From: Streptomyces sp. ICBB 8177
GTDB taxonomy: Bacteria > Actinomycetota > Actinomycetes > Streptomycetales > Streptomycetaceae
DNA: 64,000 nucleotides
Direction: 5' to 3'
NCBI RefSeq assembly: GCF_003144095.1
Contig: NZ_NSKH01000023.1
Span: 186,001-250,000 of the forward strand
The number at the start of each line of letters is the position of its first letter. Position 1 is the stretch's first letter. The notes beneath the pieces are model-generated. The model made no database searches and was not told the origin of the DNA. It saw nothing but the letters and a program-made list of their open reading frames with translations. The position numbers and the translations under genes are program-made. This document shows positions 326-12,414 of the stretch, in pieces.

Positions 326-531
326 CCCGACGGCACCGCCCACGGTGCCGCCCAGCAGCTCCGGGCGGCGGTCGCGGATCTCGTCCCTTTCCGCCCCGCC
401 GCCCGGTACGGCCTCCCCCACCTTCTGGCCGAGCAGTACTCGTTCGCCTCGGGCCGTCCCCCGGGTCGTGCGCATCCCAAATCCCGTGCCGCCGTGCGCG
501 GGTGCCCCTGTGAACCTTGGGAGTTGCACCC

Positions 532-1983
532 ATGACCCAGTCGCAAATCGAGCCGCCGGCGGTCGCGGAGGACGCGGGAGACGGCACACGCCAGCCCGCG
601 GGCCGCTCCTGGCTCGACCGTTACTTCCACATCTCCGACAGAAGCTCGACGGTCGCCCGCGAGGTCCGCGGCGGTCTGACGACCTTCATGGCGATGGCGT
701 ACATCCTGCTGCTCAACCCCGTACTGCTCTCCGTTCCGGACGTCAACGGCCACCGCCTGCCGCACGCCGCGCTCATCACGGCGACCGCGCTGGGCGGCGC
801 CGTCACCACGTTGCTGATGGGGTTCGTCGGCAAGGTCCCGCTCGCGCTCGCCGCGGGACTGAGCGTCGCCGGAGTGGTCTCCACCCAGGTGGCCCCGGAG
901 ATGACCTGGCCGCAGGCGATGGGGATGTGCGTCATCTACGGCGCCGTCATCGTCCTGCTGGTGGTCTCCGGACTGCGTGAGGCGGTGATGAACGCGATAC
1001 CGCTGCCGCTCAAGCACGGCATCACCGTCGGCATCGGCATGTTCATCTCGCTCATCGGCCTGGTCAACGCGGGCTTCATCGGCAAGGGAGACCCGGTGGC
1101 GCTCGGCGTCGGCGGGCACCTGACCGGCTGGCCGGTGCTGGTGTTCTGCGTGACGCTGCTGACCATCTTCATGCTCCAGGCCCGCAAGGTGCCCGGCGCC
1201 ATCCTCATCGGCATCGTCTCCGGCACCGTGCTCGCCGCGATCCTCCAGGCCGTCGGCGCCACCCAGGCCAAGGACTGGGGCCTCAACGTCCCGGCCCTGC
1301 CGCACAACCCGGTCTCCATGCCCGACTTCTCGCTCTTCGGCCACGTCGAGTTCGGCGGCTGGGGCAAGATCGGCGGGATGACGGTCGGAGTGATCGTCTT
1401 CACCCTCGTGCTGGCCGGGTTCTTCGACGCGATGGCCACCATCATCGGCGTCGGCACCGAAGCGGGACTCGCCGACTCCCAGGGCCGCATGCCGGGCCTG
1501 AGCAAGGCGCTGTTCATCGACGGCGCCGGCGGCATGATCGGCGGCGCGGTCGGCGGCTCGGGACAGACCGTCTTCATCGAGTCCGCGACCGGCGTCGGCG
1601 AGGGCGCCCGCACCGGCCTGTCCAGCGTGGTCACCGGCCTGCTGTTCGCCGCGGCGCTGTTCTTCACCCCCGTCGCCTCGATCGTGCCGGGACAGGCCGC
1701 CGCCGCCGCGCTGGTGGTCATCGGCTCGATGATGATGACCAACGTCCGGCACATCGACTGGACCGACCGCTCGGTGTCGATCCCGGTCTTCCTGACCGTC
1801 GCCCTGATGCCCTTCACCTACGGCATCACCCCCGGCGTCGGCGCGGGCGTCATCTCCTACTGCGCCATCAAGGGCGCCCAGGGCAAGTGGCGCGAGCCCA
1901 GCGTCCTGATGTGGATCCTGTCCGTCGTCTTCGTCGTGTACTTCGCCCTCAACCCGATCCAGAGCTGGCTCGGGGTCCACTGA
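532..1983 (+). CDS. AzgA-type NCS2 purine permease
   Basis: A 483-residue polytopic membrane protein of the NCS2 family, in the AzgA branch that imports adenine, guanine or hypoxanthine with protons. After a hydrophilic N-terminal tail of about 40 residues, hydrophobic segments run to the C terminus. The family motif NPVLLSVPDVNG follows the first helix, and GSGQTVFIESATGVGEGART lies around residue 345 in the second half. ATG 532 is preceded by GGGAG at a good distance; a TTG at 517 in the same frame has none. It lies between the xanthine dehydrogenase end and xdhC on the same strand, so it probably supplies substrate to that enzyme. Substrate is inferred from family and context. Confidence 0.88.
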   Translation: MTQSQIEPPAVAEDAGDGTRQPAGRSWLDRYFHISDRSSTVAREVRGGLTTFMAMAYILLLNPVLLSVPDVNGHRLPHAALITATALGGAVTTLLMGFVGKVPLALAAGLSVAGVVSTQVAPEMTWPQAMGMCVIYGAVIVLLVVSGLREAVMNAIPLPLKHGITVGIGMFISLIGLVNAGFIGKGDPVALGVGGHLTGWPVLVFCVTLLTIFMLQARKVPGAILIGIVSGTVLAAILQAVGATQAKDWGLNVPALPHNPVSMPDFSLFGHVEFGGWGKIGGMTVGVIVFTLVLAGFFDAMATIIGVGTEAGLADSQGRMPGLSKALFIDGAGGMIGGAVGGSGQTVFIESATGVGEGARTGLSSVVTGLLFAAALFFTPVASIVPGQAAAAALVVIGSMMMTNVRHIDWTDRSVSIPVFLTVALMPFTYGITPGVGAGVISYCAIKGAQGKWREPSVLMWILSVVFVVYFALNPIQSWLGVH

Positions 1984-2015
1984 CCCCGGCGGCTCCCTTC
2001 AAGGAGTGGCACATC

Positions 2016-3158
2016 ATGCTGGACATCGCTGACGAGTTGCGCCGCTGGTACACGGCAGGGCGGCCGTTCGCCGTCGCGACCGTGGTGGCGACCGGCGGCA
2101 GCGCGCCCCGCCAGCCCGGCGCCGCGCTCGCCGTCGATGCCGAGGGCCGTGCGATCGGCAGCGTGTCCGGCGGATGTGTGGAGGGCGCGGTCTACGAACT
2201 GTGCCGGGAGGCCCTGGAGACCGGCACCCCGGTGCTCGAGACCTTCGGGTACTCCGACGAGGACGCCTTCGCGGTCGGCCTGACCTGCGGTGGCGTCATC
2301 GACATCTTCGTCCAGCGGGTGGACCCGGCGACCATGCCGGAGTTCGGTGCCGCGCTGGAGGCGGCGGGGGAGGGGGAGCCGGTCGCGGTCGCCCGGGTCG
2401 TCAAGGGCCCGGGCGGCCTGCTGGGTTCCGCGCTCGTCGTCCCGTCCGGGGACAACGGCGGCCGAGGAGGCTTCGGCGACGCGGAGCTGGACGCCACCGT
2501 GGGGGCCGAGGCCGCCGCCATGCTGGACGCGGGGCGCACCGGCACCGTCGAGGTCGGCGCGGACGGCAGCCGCTGCGGTGAGCCGCTGACGCTGCTGGTC
2601 GAGTGCCGCGTCCCGGCGCCGCGCATGCTCGTCTTCGGGGCCATCGACTTCGCGGCGGCGGTGGTCCGCATCGGCACGTTCCTGGGCTACCGCGTCACCG
2701 TGTGCGACGCCCGCCCGGTGTTCGCCACGGCGGCCCGCTTCCCGCAGGCCGACGAGGTGGTGGTCGACTGGCCGCACCGCTACCTCGACTCCCAGACCCT
2801 GGACGCGCGCACCGTGCTGTGCGTGCTCACCCACGACGCCAAGTTCGACATCCCGCTGCTGGAGCGGGCGCTGCGGCTGCCGGTGGCCTACGTCGGCGCC
2901 ATGGGATCGCGCCGCACCCACCTGGACCGCCTGGAGCGGCTGCGCGAAGCCGGCCTGACCGAGCTGGAGTTGAACCGCCTGCGCTCCCCGATCGGCCTGG
3001 ACCTGGGCGCCCGCACCCCGGAGGAGACCGCGCTGTCCATCGCCGCCGAGATCGTCGCCCACCGGCGCGGCGGCTCCGGTGCCCCGCTCACCGGCGCGCA
3101 CACCCCCATCCACCACGACACCGCACGCGGGCGCACCCGGGTGGGATCGGCGGCGTGA
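2016..3158 (+). CDS. XdhC family molybdoenzyme maturation protein
   Basis: A 380-residue protein of the XdhC/CoxF family, which binds molybdenum cofactor, protects it, and helps its sulfuration and insertion into xanthine dehydrogenase. The N-terminal XdhC/CoxI domain shows GSVSGGCVEGAVYELC. The C-terminal Rossmann-like domain starts near residue 205 (MLVFGAIDFAAAVVRIGTFLG) and carries AYVGAMGSRRTH and SPIGLDLGARTPEETALSI, all typical of the family. AAGGAG stands 9 nt before the chosen ATG. The gene is 32 bp downstream of the permease and co-directional with the xdh end, so it is probably the maturation factor of that enzyme. Confidence 0.92.
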   Translation: MLDIADELRRWYTAGRPFAVATVVATGGSAPRQPGAALAVDAEGRAIGSVSGGCVEGAVYELCREALETGTPVLETFGYSDEDAFAVGLTCGGVIDIFVQRVDPATMPEFGAALEAAGEGEPVAVARVVKGPGGLLGSALVVPSGDNGGRGGFGDAELDATVGAEAAAMLDAGRTGTVEVGADGSRCGEPLTLLVECRVPAPRMLVFGAIDFAAAVVRIGTFLGYRVTVCDARPVFATAARFPQADEVVVDWPHRYLDSQTLDARTVLCVLTHDAKFDIPLLERALRLPVAYVGAMGSRRTHLDRLERLREAGLTELELNRLRSPIGLDLGARTPEETALSIAAEIVAHRRGGSGAPLTGAHTPIHHDTARGRTRVGSAA

Positions 3159-3185: not shown

Positions 3186-4340
3186 TCAGCGGTAGTTCAG
3201 CTCGGCCATCTCGGTGGCGAGCCTGGTGCGGAACGTCGGGACGCGGCCCAGCAGCGGCAGCAGGGTCCCGCGTGCCATCCGGCCGCCCGCCCCGCGCAGG
3301 GTGGCGAAGCGCGTCAGGCGGTCGGTGAACGCCACCACCCGCTCGGCGACCGGCCGGCGCAGCGCCTCGTAGGTGTCCACGCGGTCCTGCGCGATCGCCC
3401 GGCCCAGCGCGTGGCCGTCCTGGATGCCGGTGTTCATGCCCTGGCCGCCCGCGGGGCTGTGCACGTGAGCCGCGTCACCGGCGAGCAGCAGCCGCCCGGC
3501 GCGGTAGCGGTCGGCGACCCGGTGGTGCACCCGGAAGCGCGAGGACCACCGCACCTCGTCGATCCGCAGCTGCCCCGGCACCCGCTCGTCCATCACCCGT
3601 TGCACGAAGGCGAGTTCGGGCCGCTCGGGCGCCTCGTCCACCGTGGCCACCACGCGGTAGCGGTCGCCGGGCAGCGGCGCGACCAGCGCGAGGCCCCGCT
3701 CGTGCAGCAGCAGCGCCACCGTCTCGCGCCCCGGCGCCCACCGCGCGCGCACGTCCGCCAGCACGAAGGACTCCCCGTACGAGCCGCCGGGGAAGCCGAT
3801 GCCGGCCGCCTCCCGCACCACGCTGTGCATCCCGTCGGCGCCCACCGCGTAGGCGGCGCGCAGGGTCTCGCCGGTGGCCATGGTGAGCGTGACGCCGGCC
3901 TCGTCCTGGGCCACGCCCGCCACCTCGTACGGCCGGTACGCGTCGCCGCCGGCCCGCCGCAGGGTCTCCAGCAGCACGCCCTCGGTCGTGTCCTGCGGCA
4001 CCAGCAGCGCGTACGGGAACGGTGTCGCGAGCCGCGAGAACGGCACGTTCAGCAGTTCCCGGGTGCCCTCCCGGACGCTGAAGCGGTCCACCGCGAGCCC
4101 TCGGGACGTCAGCTGCCTCGCCGCGCCCAGGCTGTCCAGCACCTCCAGGGTGCGGGCGTGCACCACGGCGGCGCGGGAGGTGTTGGCGCCCTCCGCGAGC
4201 CGGTCGAGCAGGACGAAATCGACCCCGGCCCGGGCCAGGGTGAGGGCGAGCGCGAGCCCGGTCGGCCCGGCGCCGACGATGGCGACCTCGGTGCGCTCCG
4301 GCAGGGCGGGGCGGCCGGCGGCGTGTGCGGTCGTGTCCAT
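3186..4340 (-). CDS. FAD-dependent aromatic monooxygenase-like oxidoreductase
   Basis: A 384-residue single-component flavoprotein of the PheA/TfdB (p-hydroxybenzoate hydroxylase fold) family. The dinucleotide-binding motif VGAGPTGLALALTLARAG begins near residue 22, the DG motif VGADGMHSVVR near 155, and the second FAD motif LLLAGDAAHVHSPAGGQGMN near 275. It should hydroxylate an aromatic or polyketide-like substrate with NAD(P)H and O2, but the substrate cannot be read. ATG 4340 is preceded by AAAGGGGG; an upstream ATG (4358) would add six residues. It is divergent from a TetR gene, and the shared intergenic region carries five 14-bp operator-like repeats. Repression by that TetR and induction by a small aromatic is the likely regulation. 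Confidence 0.85.
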   Translation of the reverse strand: MDTTAHAAGRPALPERTEVAIVGAGPTGLALALTLARAGVDFVLLDRLAEGANTSRAAVVHARTLEVLDSLGAARQLTSRGLAVDRFSVREGTRELLNVPFSRLATPFPYALLVPQDTTEGVLLETLRRAGGDAYRPYEVAGVAQDEAGVTLTMATGETLRAAYAVGADGMHSVVREAAGIGFPGGSYGESFVLADVRARWAPGRETVALLLHERGLALVAPLPGDRYRVVATVDEAPERPELAFVQRVMDERVPGQLRIDEVRWSSRFRVHHRVADRYRAGRLLLAGDAAHVHSPAGGQGMNTGIQDGHALGRAIAQDRVDTYEALRRPVAERVVAFTDRLTRFATLRGAGGRMARGTLLPLLGRVPTFRTRLATEMAELNYR

Positions 4341-4362: not shown

Positions 4363-4459
4363 CCAACGATTGTTGGCCAACGTCTGTTGTCATGGTGCGC
4401 GGAGCCTCGCCATGAAGTCAACAGGTGTTGGCCCACGAATGTTGGCCTACAGTTGTTGA
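4363..4459. promoter_or_regulatory. Array of five 14-bp TetR operator-like repeats
   Basis: Between the monooxygenase and the TetR gene are five 14-bp elements of the form CCAAC-N4-GTTGG. They lie at 4363-4376 (perfect), 4377-4390, 4418-4431, 4432-4445 and 4446-4459. The first two abut each other, and the last three abut each other. The last copy overlaps TACAGT (4448-4453), a possible -10 element of the TetR gene. Binding by the adjacent TetR protein is inferred from position and symmetry. Confidence 0.75.
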
Positions 4460-4460
4460 C

Positions 4461-5060
4461 GTGAAGACGACCAACGAGGACCAGCCACTCGCGGGCGGCC
4501 GGGACGCCGAAGGGGCCCGGCGCTCGGACCGCACGCGGGCCGCGATCCTGCGGGCCGCGCGCGAGCGCTTCGCCGAGCACGGCTTCGAACGCACCACCAT
4601 CCGCGCGGTCGCGGCCGACGCGGACATCGACCCGTCGATGGTCATGCGCTACTTCGGCACCAAGGAACGGCTCTTCGACGCAGCCCTCGACATCGACCTG
4701 CGCCTGCCCGACCTGGCCGGCGTACCCCTGGCCGGACTGCCCGAGCTGCTGGTGCGGCACTTCCTCGACCGCTGGGAGAGCGACCCGCCGGACGACGGGC
4801 TGCTGGTGCTGCTGCGCTCGGCGGTCACCAACGAACGCGCCGCCCGGCGCACCCGGGAGATGTTCGCCGCGCAGGTCGCCCCCGCGGTGGCCGGAGTCCT
4901 GCCACCGCGGTCCGCGGCCCGCGTCGGGCTGGTCTCGGCCCAGCTGCTCGGGCTCGCCCTCACCCGCTACCTGCTGCGCATGCCCGCGGTGACGGAACTG
5001 TCGAAGGAGGAGATCGTGGAGACGCTCGCCCCCGCCATCGCCCGCACGCTGGGGCTGTAA
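4461..5060 (+). CDS. TetR family transcriptional regulator
   Basis: A 199-residue TetR repressor. The N-terminal helix-turn-helix region reads RAAILRAARERFAEHGFERT, TTIRAVAADADIDPSMVMRYF, then GTKERLFDAA; the remaining 130 residues form the variable ligand-binding domain. GTG 4461 follows directly on the last operator repeat and has no ribosome-binding site. A -10-like TACAGT lies 7 nt before it, so translation from a leaderless mRNA is plausible. An upstream ATG-like start would run through the operator array. It most likely represses the divergent monooxygenase and itself. Confidence 0.88.
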   Translation: MKTTNEDQPLAGGRDAEGARRSDRTRAAILRAARERFAEHGFERTTIRAVAADADIDPSMVMRYFGTKERLFDAALDIDLRLPDLAGVPLAGLPELLVRHFLDRWESDPPDDGLLVLLRSAVTNERAARRTREMFAAQVAPAVAGVLPPRSAARVGLVSAQLLGLALTRYLLRMPAVTELSKEEIVETLAPAIARTLGL

Positions 5061-5097: not shown

Positions 5098-5994
5098 TTA
5101 CGGAAGCAGGCCCGCGCGCCGGGCCGCGACGACCGCCTCAAGGCGCGTGTGCGCGCCCAGCTTGCGCATGGCCGACCGCAGATACGCCTTCACCGTCTCC
5201 GGGCGCAGCCCCAGCCGGTCCGCCACGGCGGCGTTGGTGGCGCCGCGCGAGACGCACGAGAGCACGTCCACCTCACGCGGGGACAGCGCCACGTCGCGGT
5301 CCCCGCGCGCCGTTCCGCCGCACGCGCTCTCCAACCGGGCGCAGGCGGCCAGCAGTTCGCCCCGCAGCCGGGCGTCCGGCACGTCGTGCGCGAGCGTCCG
5401 CAGTTGCGCGTGGGCGGCCCGCACCTCCTCCCAGGCGGCCGGGGCCGCGGCGCGCAGCCGGTCCGCGTCGTCGCGCGCCGCGATCGACCGCTCCAGCCCG
5501 CCCGCGGTCCGCACGGCCGCAGCCAGGGCGCGGTCGCCCAGGGCCGTGGGCTCGCGCAACGCCGCGTAGAGCACCGCGCGCACCCGGCGCCGTACCACCA
5601 CCGGCACGGCGAGCACCGACCGCAGGCCCTCGGCGGCCACCGCCGCGTCGTACTCGTGGCTGATCGCGCGGGACGCCCGGTAGTCGGTGACCGCGACCGG
5701 CCGGGCCAGCGCGATCGCCTTGCCGCCCAGCCCGCTGCCCGAGCTGATCGCCAGCCCGCGCAGCGCGCACGTGGTGGTGCCGACGAGCTGGGAGATCCGG
5801 AACCCTGCCCCCTCGCCACCGGGCGCGCGGGCCGCCGCCGGGGCGCCGTCGCCGGTCAGGCCGCCGAAGGCGATCGGCAGGCCGCAGGAGCGCGTCAGGG
5901 CGGCCAGCGCCTCGCGCACGTCGGCGGCTTCGTCCTGCCGGGCCTGTTCCCGGGCCTGTTCCTGGGCCCGCCCGGCTACGCCGTCGGTGCGCAT
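5098..5994 (-). CDS. LuxR-type regulator with GAF-like sensor domain
   Basis: A 298-residue regulator. Residues about 25-190 resemble a GAF sensor domain ([20 protein letters not shown], then [23 protein letters not shown]). The C-terminal 65 residues are a LuxR/FixJ helix-turn-helix ([40 protein letters not shown]). AGGAGG precedes the ATG. Regulators of this architecture commonly stand next to acyl-CoA synthetase genes in actinomycetes, as here. A perfect 16-bp palindrome lies in the divergent promoter and recurs before a second acyl-CoA synthetase gene about 7.7 kb away. The ligand sensed by the GAF domain is unknown; a fatty acid or acyl-CoA is possible. Confidence 0.85.
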
Positions 5995-8104: not shown

Positions 8105-8150
8105 GTTGGGCGCTTCGTCACGGCAGGCGTGGTCGACACGGGAGGGCTCA

Positions 8151-9932
8151 ATGCCTCGGATGACCGCCGCTCGCGCGGCAGTGGAGATCCTCAAGAAGGA
8201 AGGCGTGACCCACGCGTTCGGTGTGCCCGGCGCTGCGATCAACCCCTTCTACGCCGCCCTGAAGGCGTCCGGCGGAGTCCGCCACACGCTGGCCCGGCAC
8301 GTCGAGGGCGCGTCGCACATGGCCGAGGGCTACACCCGCACCCACCCCGGCAACATCGGTGTGTGCATCGGCACCTCGGGCCCGGCCGGGACCGACATGA
8401 TCACGGGACTGTACTCCGCCACCGGTGACTCCATCCCGATCCTGTGCATCACGGGCCAGGCGCCGACCGCCGTGATCCACAAGGAGGACTTCCAGGCCGT
8501 CGACATCGCCTCCATCGCGGCGCCGGTCACCAAGAAGGCCACCACCGTGCTGGAGGCCGCCCAGGTGCCGGGCGTCTTCCAGCAGGCGTTCCACCTGATG
8601 CGTTCCGGGCGTCCCGGGCCGGTGCTGATCGACCTGCCGATCGACGTGCAGCTCACCGAGATCGAGTTCGATCCCGACACCTACGAGCCGCTGCCGGTCT
8701 ACAAGCCGGCCGCGACCCGCGCGCAGGTCGAGAAGGCCGTCGCTCTGCTCAACGCCTCGCAGCGCCCGCTGATCGTCGCGGGCGGCGGAGTCATCAACGC
8801 CGACGCCTCCGACCTGCTGGTGGAGTTCGCCGAGCTGACCGGCACGCCGGTCATCCCGACCCTGATGGGCTGGGGCGCCATCGCGGACGACCACGAGCTG
8901 AACGCGGGCATGGTGGGCCTCCAGACCTCGCACCGTTACGGCAATGCCACGTTCCTGGAGTCGGACTTCGTCCTCGGCATCGGCAACCGCTGGGCCAACC
9001 GCCACACCGGCAAGCTGGACACGTACACCGAGGGCCGCACCTTCGTGCACGTCGACATCGAGCCCACCCAACTCGGCAAGATCTTCGCGCCCGACTACGG
9101 GATCGCCTCGGACGCCAAGGCGGCGCTCGAACTGTTCGTCGAGGTGGCCAAGGGGCTGAAGGCGAAGGGCGAACTGCCCGACCGCAGCGACTGGGCGGCC
9201 TCCGCGCAGGACCGCAAGGCCCGCCTCCAGCGCCGCACCCACTTCGACAACGTGCCGATCAAGCCGCAGCGCGTCTACGAGGAGATGAACCGCGCCTTCG
9301 GCCCCGAGACCCGGTACGTCACCACCATCGGCCTGTCGCAGATCGCCGGCGCCCAGATGCTGCACGTCTACAAGCCGCGGCACTGGATCAACTGCGGCCA
9401 GGCGGGCCCGCTGGGCTGGACCATCCCGGCCGCGCTCGGCGTCGCCACCGCGGACCCGCAGGCCACGGTCGTGGCGCTGTCCGGCGACTACGACTTCCAG
9501 TTCATGCTGGAGGAACTGGCGGTCGGCGCCCAGCACAACATCCCCTACGTCCACGTGCTGGTGAACAACGCCTACCTCGGGCTGATCCGGCAGGCGCAGC
9601 GCAACTTCGACATCGACTTCCAGGTCAACCTGGAGTTCGAGAACGTCAACACGCCGGAGATCGGCGTCTACGGCGTGGACCACGTGAAGGTCGCCGAGGG
9701 CCTGGGCTGCAAGGCGATCCGGGTGACCGAGCCCGACCAGCTGCTGCCCGCCTTCGAGGAGGCGAAGAAGCTGGCCGCCGAGTTCCGCGTCCCGGTCGTG
9801 GTCGAGGCGATCCTGGAGCGGATCACCAACATCGCGATGAGCGGCTCGGACATCGCGAGCGTCAACGAGTTCGAGGAACTGGCGACCGAGCCGGGCCACG
9901 CCCCCACCGCGATCCGCCAGTTGACGGTGTGA
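8151..9932 (+). CDS. gcl: Glyoxylate carboligase (tartronate semialdehyde synthase)
   Basis: A 593-residue thiamine-diphosphate enzyme that condenses two glyoxylate molecules to tartronate semialdehyde and CO2. It draws off the glyoxylate made from ureidoglycolate. The pyrimidine domain reads [20 protein letters not shown]. Residue 51 is valine where nearly all thiamine-diphosphate enzymes have the activating glutamate; this substitution is a known hallmark of glyoxylate carboligase. The ThDP-binding segment [20 protein letters not shown] lies near residue 443. GGAGGG stands 4 nt before ATG 8151. The IclR-type composite operator overlaps its promoter, and hyi and glxR for the next steps are encoded about 8 kb away. 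Confidence 0.96.
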
Positions 9933-10227: not shown

Positions 10228-10893
10228 TCAGTCCGGGTCCGGGGCCAGGTAGCGGCGCAGCACGCGCTTGCACTCTGCGATCAGGGCCGGGTCGCCGTCC
10301 GGGTCCACGCGGAAGGCGAGCTGGAGCACCGCGTCCGCGCACTCCATCGCCACCCGCAGCGCCAGCGACGGATCGGTGCCGTCCTGCCCGTCCGTGCCGC
10401 CCTCAGGCTCCAGCAGCCCGCCGATCAGGGCGCCGAGACGCTGGGCCACCGCCGCGTTGTTGTCCAGCACCGCGTCGAGGATGTGCTGCTCCGCACGGTT
10501 GCCGGGCGGCCCGACCACGCCGAAGTCCAGCACCCCGAAGCCGGGCACCGCGCGCTTCATCGCGACGAACTCCTCCACCGCGAGGTCGGTCAACGCGCCC
10601 ACGTGGGCCGGGGCCTCGCACTCGATGCGGCGGGCCAGCCGGGCGAGGTAGCGCTCCAGGTTGCGCTCGGCCAGCGCGGCCACCAGGGCGTCCTTGCCGG
10701 TGAAGAACTGGTACAGCGTGCCGATCGGCACCTCGGCGCGGCGGGCCACCTCCCGGGTGGTCAGCGCCCCGTACCCGGACTCGTCCAGCAATCGCGCGCT
10801 CGCGTCCAGGATGCGCTCCAGACGCTCGGCGCTGCGGCGCTGCACGGGTCTGCGGCGCAGCGGGCCGGACGGGTCCTCGGGTCGTGCCTTCAT
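10228..10893 (-). CDS. TetR family transcriptional regulator
   Basis: A 221-residue TetR protein. The helix-turn-helix spans about residues 20-65 (RILDASARLLDESGYGALTT, then REVARRAEVPIGTLYQFFTG, KDALVAALAERN). The C-terminal domain is of the type found next to drug-efflux and sugar genes, and its ligand is unknown. It is divergent from a GH1 glucosidase-MFS pair. A perfect 7-3-7 palindrome (10938-10954) lies in the shared promoter 45 nt before this gene, so it probably regulates both sides. Confidence 0.88.
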   Translation of the reverse strand: MKARPEDPSGPLRRRPVQRRSAERLERILDASARLLDESGYGALTTREVARRAEVPIGTLYQFFTGKDALVAALAERNLERYLARLARRIECEAPAHVGALTDLAVEEFVAMKRAVPGFGVLDFGVVGPPGNRAEQHILDAVLDNNAAVAQRLGALIGGLLEPEGGTDGQDGTDPSLALRVAMECADAVLQLAFRVDPDGDPALIAECKRVLRRYLAPDPD

Positions 10894-10937
10894 GTGCCCA
10901 CTCTGCCGGATCTGGCGCTCCCGCCGCGAATCACTAT

Positions 10938-10954
10938 CATGAGCGATGCTCATG
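10938..10954. promoter_or_regulatory. TetR operator candidate CATGAGC-GAT-GCTCATG
   Basis: A perfect inverted repeat of 7-bp arms and 3-bp centre between the divergent TetR and glucosidase genes. It overlaps TATCAT (10935-10940), which could be a -10 element for the glucosidase. Confidence 0.7.
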
Positions 10955-11013
10955 TTAGCCGGGTGGCCCGACGCCGCGCGCCGCCCGCGCCGGTCCGTCG
11001 AAGGGTCGCCGTG

Positions 11014-12414
11014 ATGCCGCATGAACCGTCCGCGCACGCCACGCAGCCGCACGAGCCGCCGTCCAACCCGCTGCCGTCCGGCTTCCGTTGGGGCGTATCG
11101 ACCTCCGCCTACCAGATCGAGGGCGCCACCACCGAGGACGGCCGGGGCCGAAGCGTCTGGGACACCTTCGCCGAGCGGCCCGGTGCCGTGCGCGACGGCC
11201 ACACCGCGAGGACCGCCTGCGACCACTACCACCGCTGGCGCGAGGACGTGGCGCTGCTGGCCGGGCTGGGCGTGGACGCCTACCGCTTCTCCGTCGCCTG
11301 GCCCCGGGTGCAGCCGGGCGGGCGCGGCCCGGCCAACGCCGCCGGACTGGACTTCTACGACCGGCTCACCGACGCCCTGCTGACCGCCGGGGTCGAGCCG
11401 TTCCCCACCCTCTACCACTGGGACCTGCCACAGGAGCTGGAGGACGCGGGCGGCTGGCTCTCCCGCGACACCGCGTCGCGGTTCGCCGACTACGCGGCAC
11501 TGGTGGCCGACCGGCTCGGCGACCGCGTGCGGGACTGGATCACCCTCAACGAGCCCTTCGTGCACATGGCGTTCGGCTACGCGCTCGGGGTCCACGCCCC
11601 CGGCCGCGCGCTGCTGCTGGACGCGCTGCCCGCCGCCCACCACCAACTCCTCGGCCACGGGCTGGCGTCGGCCGCCCTGCGCGAACGCGGCGGCCGGGTG
11701 CACATCGCCAACAACTGCACCCCGGTGACCCCGGCAAGTGACACGCCGGCCGACCGGGAAGCGGCGGACGCCTACGACACGCTGCACAACCGGCTCTTCA
11801 ACGACCCGGTGATCAACGGGAGTTACCCGGACCTTTCGGCCTACGGCGCGGGCGACGACCTGCGCGGGGCGCTGCGCGACGGCGACCTCGACCTCATCGG
11901 CGGCACCCCGCCGGCCGGGCTGGGCATCAATTACTACAACCCGACCCGGGTACGCGCCGCGCCCGCCGGAGCGGACCTGCCCTTCGAGGACGTGCCGATC
12001 GACGGCGTGCCGCACACCGCGTTCGGCTGGCCGGTCGTCCCCGAAGGGCTGCGCGACCTGCTGCTGGGCCTGCGCGAACGCTATGGCGACCACCTCCCGC
12101 CGCTCACCGTCACCGAGAACGGCTGCTCCTACGACGACCGCCACGGCATGGAGGACACCGAGCGCATCGACTACCTGGCAGGGCACGTCGGCGCCGTGGC
12201 GGACGCGGTGGGCCGAGGGGTGGACGTGCGCGGGTACTTCACCTGGACGCTGCTGGACAACTTCGAGTGGGCGGAGGGCTACCACCAGCGCTTCGGCCTG
12301 GTCCACGTGGACCACGAAACCCAGAAGCGCACGCCCAGGGCGTCCTACGCGTGGTACCGCGACCTGATCGCCGCGCACCGCGATCCGGCGCACCGCGATC
12401 CCGCGCGGCCGTGA
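11014..12414 (+). CDS. GH1 family beta-glucosidase
   Basis: A 466-residue glycoside hydrolase family 1 enzyme that removes terminal beta-linked glucose or a related sugar. It has no signal peptide, so it should act in the cytoplasm on imported glycosides. The N-terminal family pattern [15 protein letters not shown] is present. The acid/base glutamate lies in TLNEP (E180) and the nucleophile in TENG (E368). ATG 11014 is preceded by AAGGG; a GTG at 11011 is also possible. Its stop overlaps the start of the MFS transporter gene (GTGA), so the two are probably translated together and handle the same glycoside. Confidence 0.92.
   Translation: MPHEPSAHATQPHEPPSNPLPSGFRWGVSTSAYQIEGATTEDGRGRSVWDTFAERPGAVRDGHTARTACDHYHRWREDVALLAGLGVDAYRFSVAWPRVQPGGRGPANAAGLDFYDRLTDALLTAGVEPFPTLYHWDLPQELEDAGGWLSRDTASRFADYAALVADRLGDRVRDWITLNEPFVHMAFGYALGVHAPGRALLLDALPAAHHQLLGHGLASAALRERGGRVHIANNCTPVTPASDTPADREAADAYDTLHNRLFNDPVINGSYPDLSAYGAGDDLRGALRDGDLDLIGGTPPAGLGINYYNPTRVRAAPAGADLPFEDVPIDGVPHTAFGWPVVPEGLRDLLLGLRERYGDHLPPLTVTENGCSYDDRHGMEDTERIDYLAGHVGAVADAVGRGVDVRGYFTWTLLDNFEWAEGYHQRFGLVHVDHETQKRTPRASYAWYRDLIAAHRDPAHRDPARP

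Follow-up and report, generated by a model that had tools for sequence, protein, structure and literature searches.

In this work, we analysed a 64,000-nucleotide stretch of the Streptomyces sp. ICBB 8177 genome (hereafter the window) and focused on five 14-bp units of the form CCAAC-N4-GTTGG, located between a TetR-family regulator gene and a divergent FAD monooxygenase gene. This array very probably serves as the shared operator of an autoregulating, ligand-released TetR repressor that would act at both promoters, with one dimer per unit. The arrangement is kept in many actinobacteria with a varying copy number, which marks it as a genuine regulatory array, of a general type already known. 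The array, its conservation, its overlay on the promoter elements and its co-occurrence with the TetR gene are directly readable in the genomes compared below.

Organisation of the operator array

Direct reading and a pattern search located five units in the intergenic region, with 0, 1, 1, 1 and 2 mismatches to CCAAC-N4-GTTGG (Table 1). They form a contiguous pair (4363-4390) and a contiguous triplet (4418-4459) with a period of exactly 14 bp, and the pair-to-triplet distance is 41 bp start to start, with a spacer of 27 bp. Together they fill the region between the TetR GTG (4461, plus strand) and the ATG of the class A FAD monooxygenase (4340, minus strand). An earlier note, made from the letters of the window, had described repeats of this motif as a pair and a triplet between a monooxygenase and a TetR gene, the last one running up to the GTG. 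The arrangement and the identity of both genes (PF01494; PF00440 and PF17920) were confirmed, unit E ending at 4459; as to the repeats themselves, there are indeed five, but just one is an exact copy, which that note left unsaid. Unit D is an extra one compared with most homologues, which carry two tetR-side units.

Single sites with up to two mismatches were no commoner than expected by chance (31 in the window vs 26 in shuffles). However, when the 120-bp intergenic region was subjected to 20,000 dinucleotide shuffles, none yielded five sites, or an equally good triplet or pair, which rules out a chance clustering of the five units. The pattern search found no second tandem copy elsewhere in the window or in the 6.3-Mb genome; a genome-wide regulon of many tandem sites was therefore rejected.

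Table 1 Position and basis of the features surrounding the array (window coordinates)
Feature	Position	Strand	Description	Basis
Class A (PHBH-like) FAD monooxygenase gene	3189-4340	-	384 aa; predicted array target	Translation; PF01494 (E 2.4e-70)
Operator unit A, target side	4363-4376	none	CCAACGATTGTTGG, perfect copy	Direct reading and pattern search
Operator unit B, target side	4377-4390	none	CCAACGTCTGTTGT, 1 mismatch	Direct reading and pattern search
Predicted monooxygenase -10 CACCAT	4392-4397	-	18 bp from -35	Position by sequence reading
Predicted monooxygenase -35 TTGACT	4416-4421	-	Overlaid on unit C	Position by sequence reading
Operator unit C, tetR side	4418-4431	none	TCAACAGGTGTTGG, 1 mismatch	Direct reading and pattern search
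Operator unit D, tetR side	4432-4445	none	CCCACGAATGTTGG, 1 mismatch	Direct reading and pattern search
Operator unit E, tetR side	4446-4459	none	CCTACAGTTGTTGA, 2 mismatches, holds predicted tetR -10	Direct reading and pattern search
Predicted tetR -10 hexamer TACAGT	4448-4453	+	7 nt before GTG start; in unit E	Direct reading
TetR-family repressor gene	4461-5060	+	199 aa, GTG start	Translation; PF00440 and PF17920; start kept in homologues

Regulator and oxygenase

The regulator combines an N-terminal TetR HTH domain (PF00440, E 2.1e-13) with a helical ligand-binding domain (PF17920, E 5.2e-27). Besides this domain architecture, its membership of the TetR family agrees with the palindromic operator lying between its gene and that of a divergent target, the units being kept across genera. 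The AlphaFold2 model (mean pLDDT 84.6) is all-helical with a TetR fold, and its best PDB matches are TetR regulators, the closest ones being uncharacterised (SCO0857 and one from Rhodococcus). No NCBIfam model reached its cut-off on the window TetR. Regarding the monooxygenase, polyketide oxygenases and rifampin monooxygenases are its closest relatives of solved structure, from which an aromatic or antibiotic-like TetR ligand is a reasonable guess.

Conservation among TetR relatives

Relatives of the TetR were retrieved by searching genome contigs with the protein alone, which gave 54 close relatives and one weak hit in a Flavobacteriaceae bin. The genera represented include Streptantibioticus, Streptomyces, Nocardia, Mycolicibacterium, Amycolatopsis, Dactylosporangium and Actinoplanes. 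Nearly all upstream regions of these protein-found relatives hold a CCAAC-N4-GTTGG unit in 14-bp phase; this comparison of orthologous intergenic regions shows that both the units and their period are kept across actinobacterial genera.

Protein-found and pattern-found loci were then considered together as 97 anchored loci, which come from related genomes so that their counts are not independent. Two tetR-side units occur in 91 of them, and target-side units number one in 21 loci, two in 51, three in 17, five in one and none in seven. The distance between target-side and tetR-side blocks is 40-48 bp start to start in all anchored loci but one. The window and its genus-mate display a rarer layout (i.e. 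two target-side and three tetR-side units), and a larger array was found at locus L054, with five target-side units bearing few mismatches and three tetR-side units. The array had first been presented as unusual for TetR operators, a view that does not hold within this subfamily, where it is the rule and where relatives have larger arrays.

Two further loci deserve mention. L128, which lies outside the anchored counts, shows what looks like four consecutive tetR-side units ahead of the start codon, the last two beginning with ATAC. One Streptomycetaceae genome carries several tandem pairs within about 230 bp (G327:C183:7652-7886), possibly the longest array seen.

Co-occurrence of array and regulator

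The DNA pattern of the tandem tetR-side pair was searched, without the protein, in 395 Streptomycetaceae genomes. It was present in 168 of them, a reversed control pattern being found in 2, and the TetR (E <= 1e-45) was present in 165. Both occurred in 159 genomes and neither in 221; nine had the pattern only and six the protein only, i.e. 15 discordant genomes at the thresholds used. When loci were fetched by the DNA pattern alone, a TetR homologue lay within the 3-kb locus in 28/29 cases. When the sample was widened to the class, 43/395 genomes had the pattern, one mismatch being allowed.

Sites follow the promoter

A homologue of the oxygenase is divergent from tetR in 86 of the 97 anchored loci, and every one of these 86 has target-side units. 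In four loci, such units precede other divergent genes: one for an MFS transporter (L011), one for a short-chain dehydrogenase (L039) and, at L089 and L090, genes for ABM-domain or related proteins (Pfam identification of these targets covered L011, L039 and L089). A divergent oxygenase of this type is absent from the seven anchored loci that lack target-side units.

Rearranged loci were informative in the same respect. In two Actinoplanes loci (L035 and L040), where the oxygenase and tetR form an operon, the array has been relocated to the front of the oxygenase, about 1.2 kb ahead of the TetR match. No site lies at the tetR start; the oxygenase is preceded by a pair and a single unit, located around the predicted -10. 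In Streptomyces sp. HM190 (L005), two TetR paralogues and an oxygenase are each preceded by tandem units, i.e. at three promoters. The two TetR genes of HM190 are related and consecutive, and the locus encodes an MFS transporter besides the oxygenase.

The conservation of the repeats across genera, their co-occurrence with the TetR and their movement with the promoter in rearranged genes strongly support the reading, already proposed in the earlier note, that they are operators of the adjacent TetR. As half-sites might be common to TetR-family proteins encoded elsewhere, another regulator might bind the units and happen to control the gene pair. This is highly improbable considering the near-perfect co-occurrence of the array with this TetR across genomes, its autoregulatory position in rearranged loci and the HTH/recognition-helix region IDPSMVMRY, which is invariant in 28 homologues sharing 52-92 % identity with the first. 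Furthermore, the TetR paralogue of the own genome (L003, 35 %) is devoid of such an array. No array was found either at the homologue carried by a S. cattleyicolor plasmid (L139, 42 %).

Dimer site and forms in distant relatives

Isolated single target-side units are mostly 18-bp palindromes, TGCCAAC-N4-GTTGGCA. Since isolated sites are of the form CAACN4GTTG with palindromic flanks, the dimer site would be CAACN4GTTG and not the junction between two units; the alternative frame, in which the junction palindrome GTTGGCCAAC (GTTGG-CCAAC) would be the dimer site, was rejected on the same ground. The central four bases are RNNY in 97 % of 317 units.

Five plasmid-borne homologues of Alphaproteobacteria (L134-L138, from Aminobacter, Mesorhizobium and Rhizobium; 41-54 % identity) have similar palindromes upstream, and four of the five lie beside annotated FAD oxidoreductases or monooxygenases. 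The Aminobacter locus has one CAACN4GTTG unit on each side, the two Rhizobium loci one CAACN4GTTTAC form and one GTAAACN4GTTTAC form, and the two Mesorhizobium loci one GCGAACN4GTTCGC. Given this single-unit form outside actinobacteria, the contiguous array looks like an actinobacterial elaboration. Homologues with single units also show that regulation as such can do without a tandem array. Genes for transposases or integrases occur close to the Mesorhizobium loci, and one of the Rhizobium plasmids was typed as conjugative.

Promoter elements and leaderless start

The consensus of 82 non-redundant loci aligned on the tetR start reads GTCAAC-RNNY-GTTGGC-CTACANTYGTTGRC-ATG. The last unit differs from the operator consensus by a T at -13 and a T at -8, which create TACANT seven bases before the start codon. 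Among the 37 non-redundant protein-found loci, TACNNT is present at the tetR -10 in 36, exactly 7 nt before ATG/GTG, the lone exception being the window's own locus (L001), which the script anchored on the target-side pair. In the first tetR-side unit, a T replaces C at -29, giving TTGACW on the opposite strand; the corresponding oxygenase -35 is TTGACT or TTGACA in 34/37 of these loci, followed by NANNNT at a spacer of 17 bp in 12 and of 18 bp in 19 (0-2 loci for other spacers). The units thus deviate from their own consensus where a promoter box needs it (TACANT and TTGACW). To anchor the conservation logo, loci whose start codon lies where expected were used; the pattern-found ones among them are biased towards the pattern, but the 37 protein-found loci repeat the promoter elements of this mixed logo.

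In seven loci whose last unit has disappeared or no longer fits (L055, L087, L092, L100, L101, L107 and L129), TANNNT is still seen by eye 6-7 bases before the start codon. A -10 box so close to the start leaves no room for a ribosome-binding site, which supports a leaderless tetR transcript; the leaderless GTG start suspected from the window alone thereby gains support. A strict scan for sigma-70 promoters and terminators gave no match in the window locus, hence the predicted promoter boxes rest on their conservation. From the position of its -10, the monooxygenase transcription start is predicted at about 4384-4386, inside unit B.

Two readings that give the repeats another role can be weighed against this overlay. 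The sequence of each unit would allow a stem of 5 bp closed by a 4-base loop, and transcription probably extends over unit A and part of B, so that target-side units might act as small hairpins in the mRNA leader. As units also occur upstream of start sites and within -35/-10 boxes, and as the tetR transcript is predicted to be leaderless, we regard this as barely conceivable. Titration, which the earlier note had raised, supposes that the extra units sequester repressor, so that the response is delayed or buffered. Storage of repressor by tandem copies is conceivable in principle, but each of the five units overlaps or adjoins core promoter elements, none being outside the divergent promoter, and the genome holds this tandem array only; we therefore consider titration very unlikely.

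Proposed mechanism

Under the shared-operator reading, each 14-bp unit CCAAC-RNNY-GTTGG would be the site of one TetR dimer. Units C-E would cover the monooxygenase -35 and the leaderless tetR -10, while units A-B would cover the predicted monooxygenase transcription start and the 5' leader. From its position and the habit of the family, we infer that the regulator is a repressor and not an activator. Without ligand, it would sit on the units and block RNA polymerase at both promoters; a small molecule, probably the oxygenase substrate or a related compound, would release it.

Side by side, the units would probably allow several dimers to bind the same segment of DNA, resulting in a tighter and sharper repression. 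Such multi-dimer or cooperative loading is plausible by analogy with EthR (see below). Arithmetically, a 14-bp period corresponds to 1.33 helical turns, so that neighbours would be rotated by about 120 degrees and one face would be shared by every third unit, three periods (42 bp) making four turns of 10.5 bp. More tentatively, it is possible that this actinobacterial TetR subfamily uses a helical-lattice operator, i.e. contiguous 14-bp dimer sites occupied by side-by-side dimers, in which evolution would add or remove target-side units and keep the tetR-side core, thereby setting the threshold and steepness of the response.

The units might instead be TetR operators that accommodate just one or two dimers per block, the extra copies being weak spares or remnants kept mainly for promoter elements. 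Consistent with this, the number of units varies among relatives, the promoter partly accounts for the retention of the unit holding the -10, single units suffice in alphaproteobacterial relatives and, in three-unit target blocks, the outer units are more degenerate than the middle one (mean mismatches 1.14 vs 0.50). However, target-side units without a recognised promoter box are also conserved in distant genera, with the 14-bp phase held, and the five tandem target-side units of L054 bear few mismatches, which makes this alternative rather unlikely.

Comparison with known systems

Functionally, the window pair comes closest to EthR/EthA of Mycobacterium tuberculosis, although the latter belongs to another family. 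EthA is a Baeyer-Villiger enzyme, whereas the window enzyme belongs to PF01494 and is of the aromatic hydroxylase type. Likewise, EthR is absent from the 35 PDB sequence matches of the window TetR at E <= 0.001, and the window regulator is not an EthR homologue by sequence. What both systems have in common is a divergent TetR-family gene and FAD monooxygenase gene sharing one operator region, which in M. tuberculosis is a short intergenic region of 75 bp (PMC3511530). EthR dimers bind cooperatively as a homo-octamer and repress both genes, as reported in PMC5403819 citing Engohang-Ndong 2004. The EthR motifs were described as complex and not as a classical palindrome (PMC4482099). By contrast, the array studied here consists of regular 14-bp palindromes of variable copy number.

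The two operators of Tn10 TetR are separate and not contiguous repeats, and we know of no leaderless start in that system. It is an autoregulated pair in which two tandem operators control tetA and tetR (Meier 1988, as cited in PMC3511530). The 5-4-5 layout of the window units is also that of the DarR operator ATACT(N)4AGTAT of mycobacteria and rhodococci, where two dimers occupy one 20-bp site (PMC10636190); DarR sites are however single, with another half-site, and its targets are transporter and cold-shock genes. Two dimers of QacR from Staphylococcus aureus bind one operator cooperatively (Schumacher 2002, as cited in PMC5895659), this operator being one 28-bp palindrome (PMC4482099) and not a repeated unit as here, and the QacR target is an efflux pump. 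Finally, MabTetRx of Mycobacterium abscessus is a drug-released TetR repressor of the FAD monooxygenase MabTetX (PMC6143652). This pairing resembles that of the window, but MabTetRx/MabTetX form one operon with one 35-bp operator, unlike the divergent pair and array described here.

In the open-access literature, the motif letters retrieved just unrelated sequence matches and no paper on this operator, and no papers were found on tandem TetR sites in Streptomyces. Few cases of multi-site TetR operators are known, as a rule from work in a single organism. The present family of repressors, which combines a fixed unit with an invariant HTH/recognition-helix region, offers a natural operator series (0-5 target-side and mostly 2-3 tetR-side units, plus the single-unit Alphaproteobacteria), which makes the effect of site number on repression directly testable. 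Since the open-access search yielded no mention of the unit, the operator can also serve to annotate regulators in many actinobacterial genomes, together with their targets, among which are oxygenases, efflux pumps and dehydrogenases.

Other genes of the window

A LuxR-type HTH regulator with an N-terminal sensor-like region adjoins the TetR gene (5098-5994, minus strand). Reading by eye, a permease and a XdhC-like protein are encoded upstream of the TetR/oxygenase pair (517-3158) and a glyoxylate carboligase-like protein downstream (8106-9932), which suggests a purine-degradation neighbourhood. A second TetR-like protein (MKARPEDPSG...) is encoded on the minus strand within the ORF 10228-12393, divergent from a beta-glucosidase-like gene.
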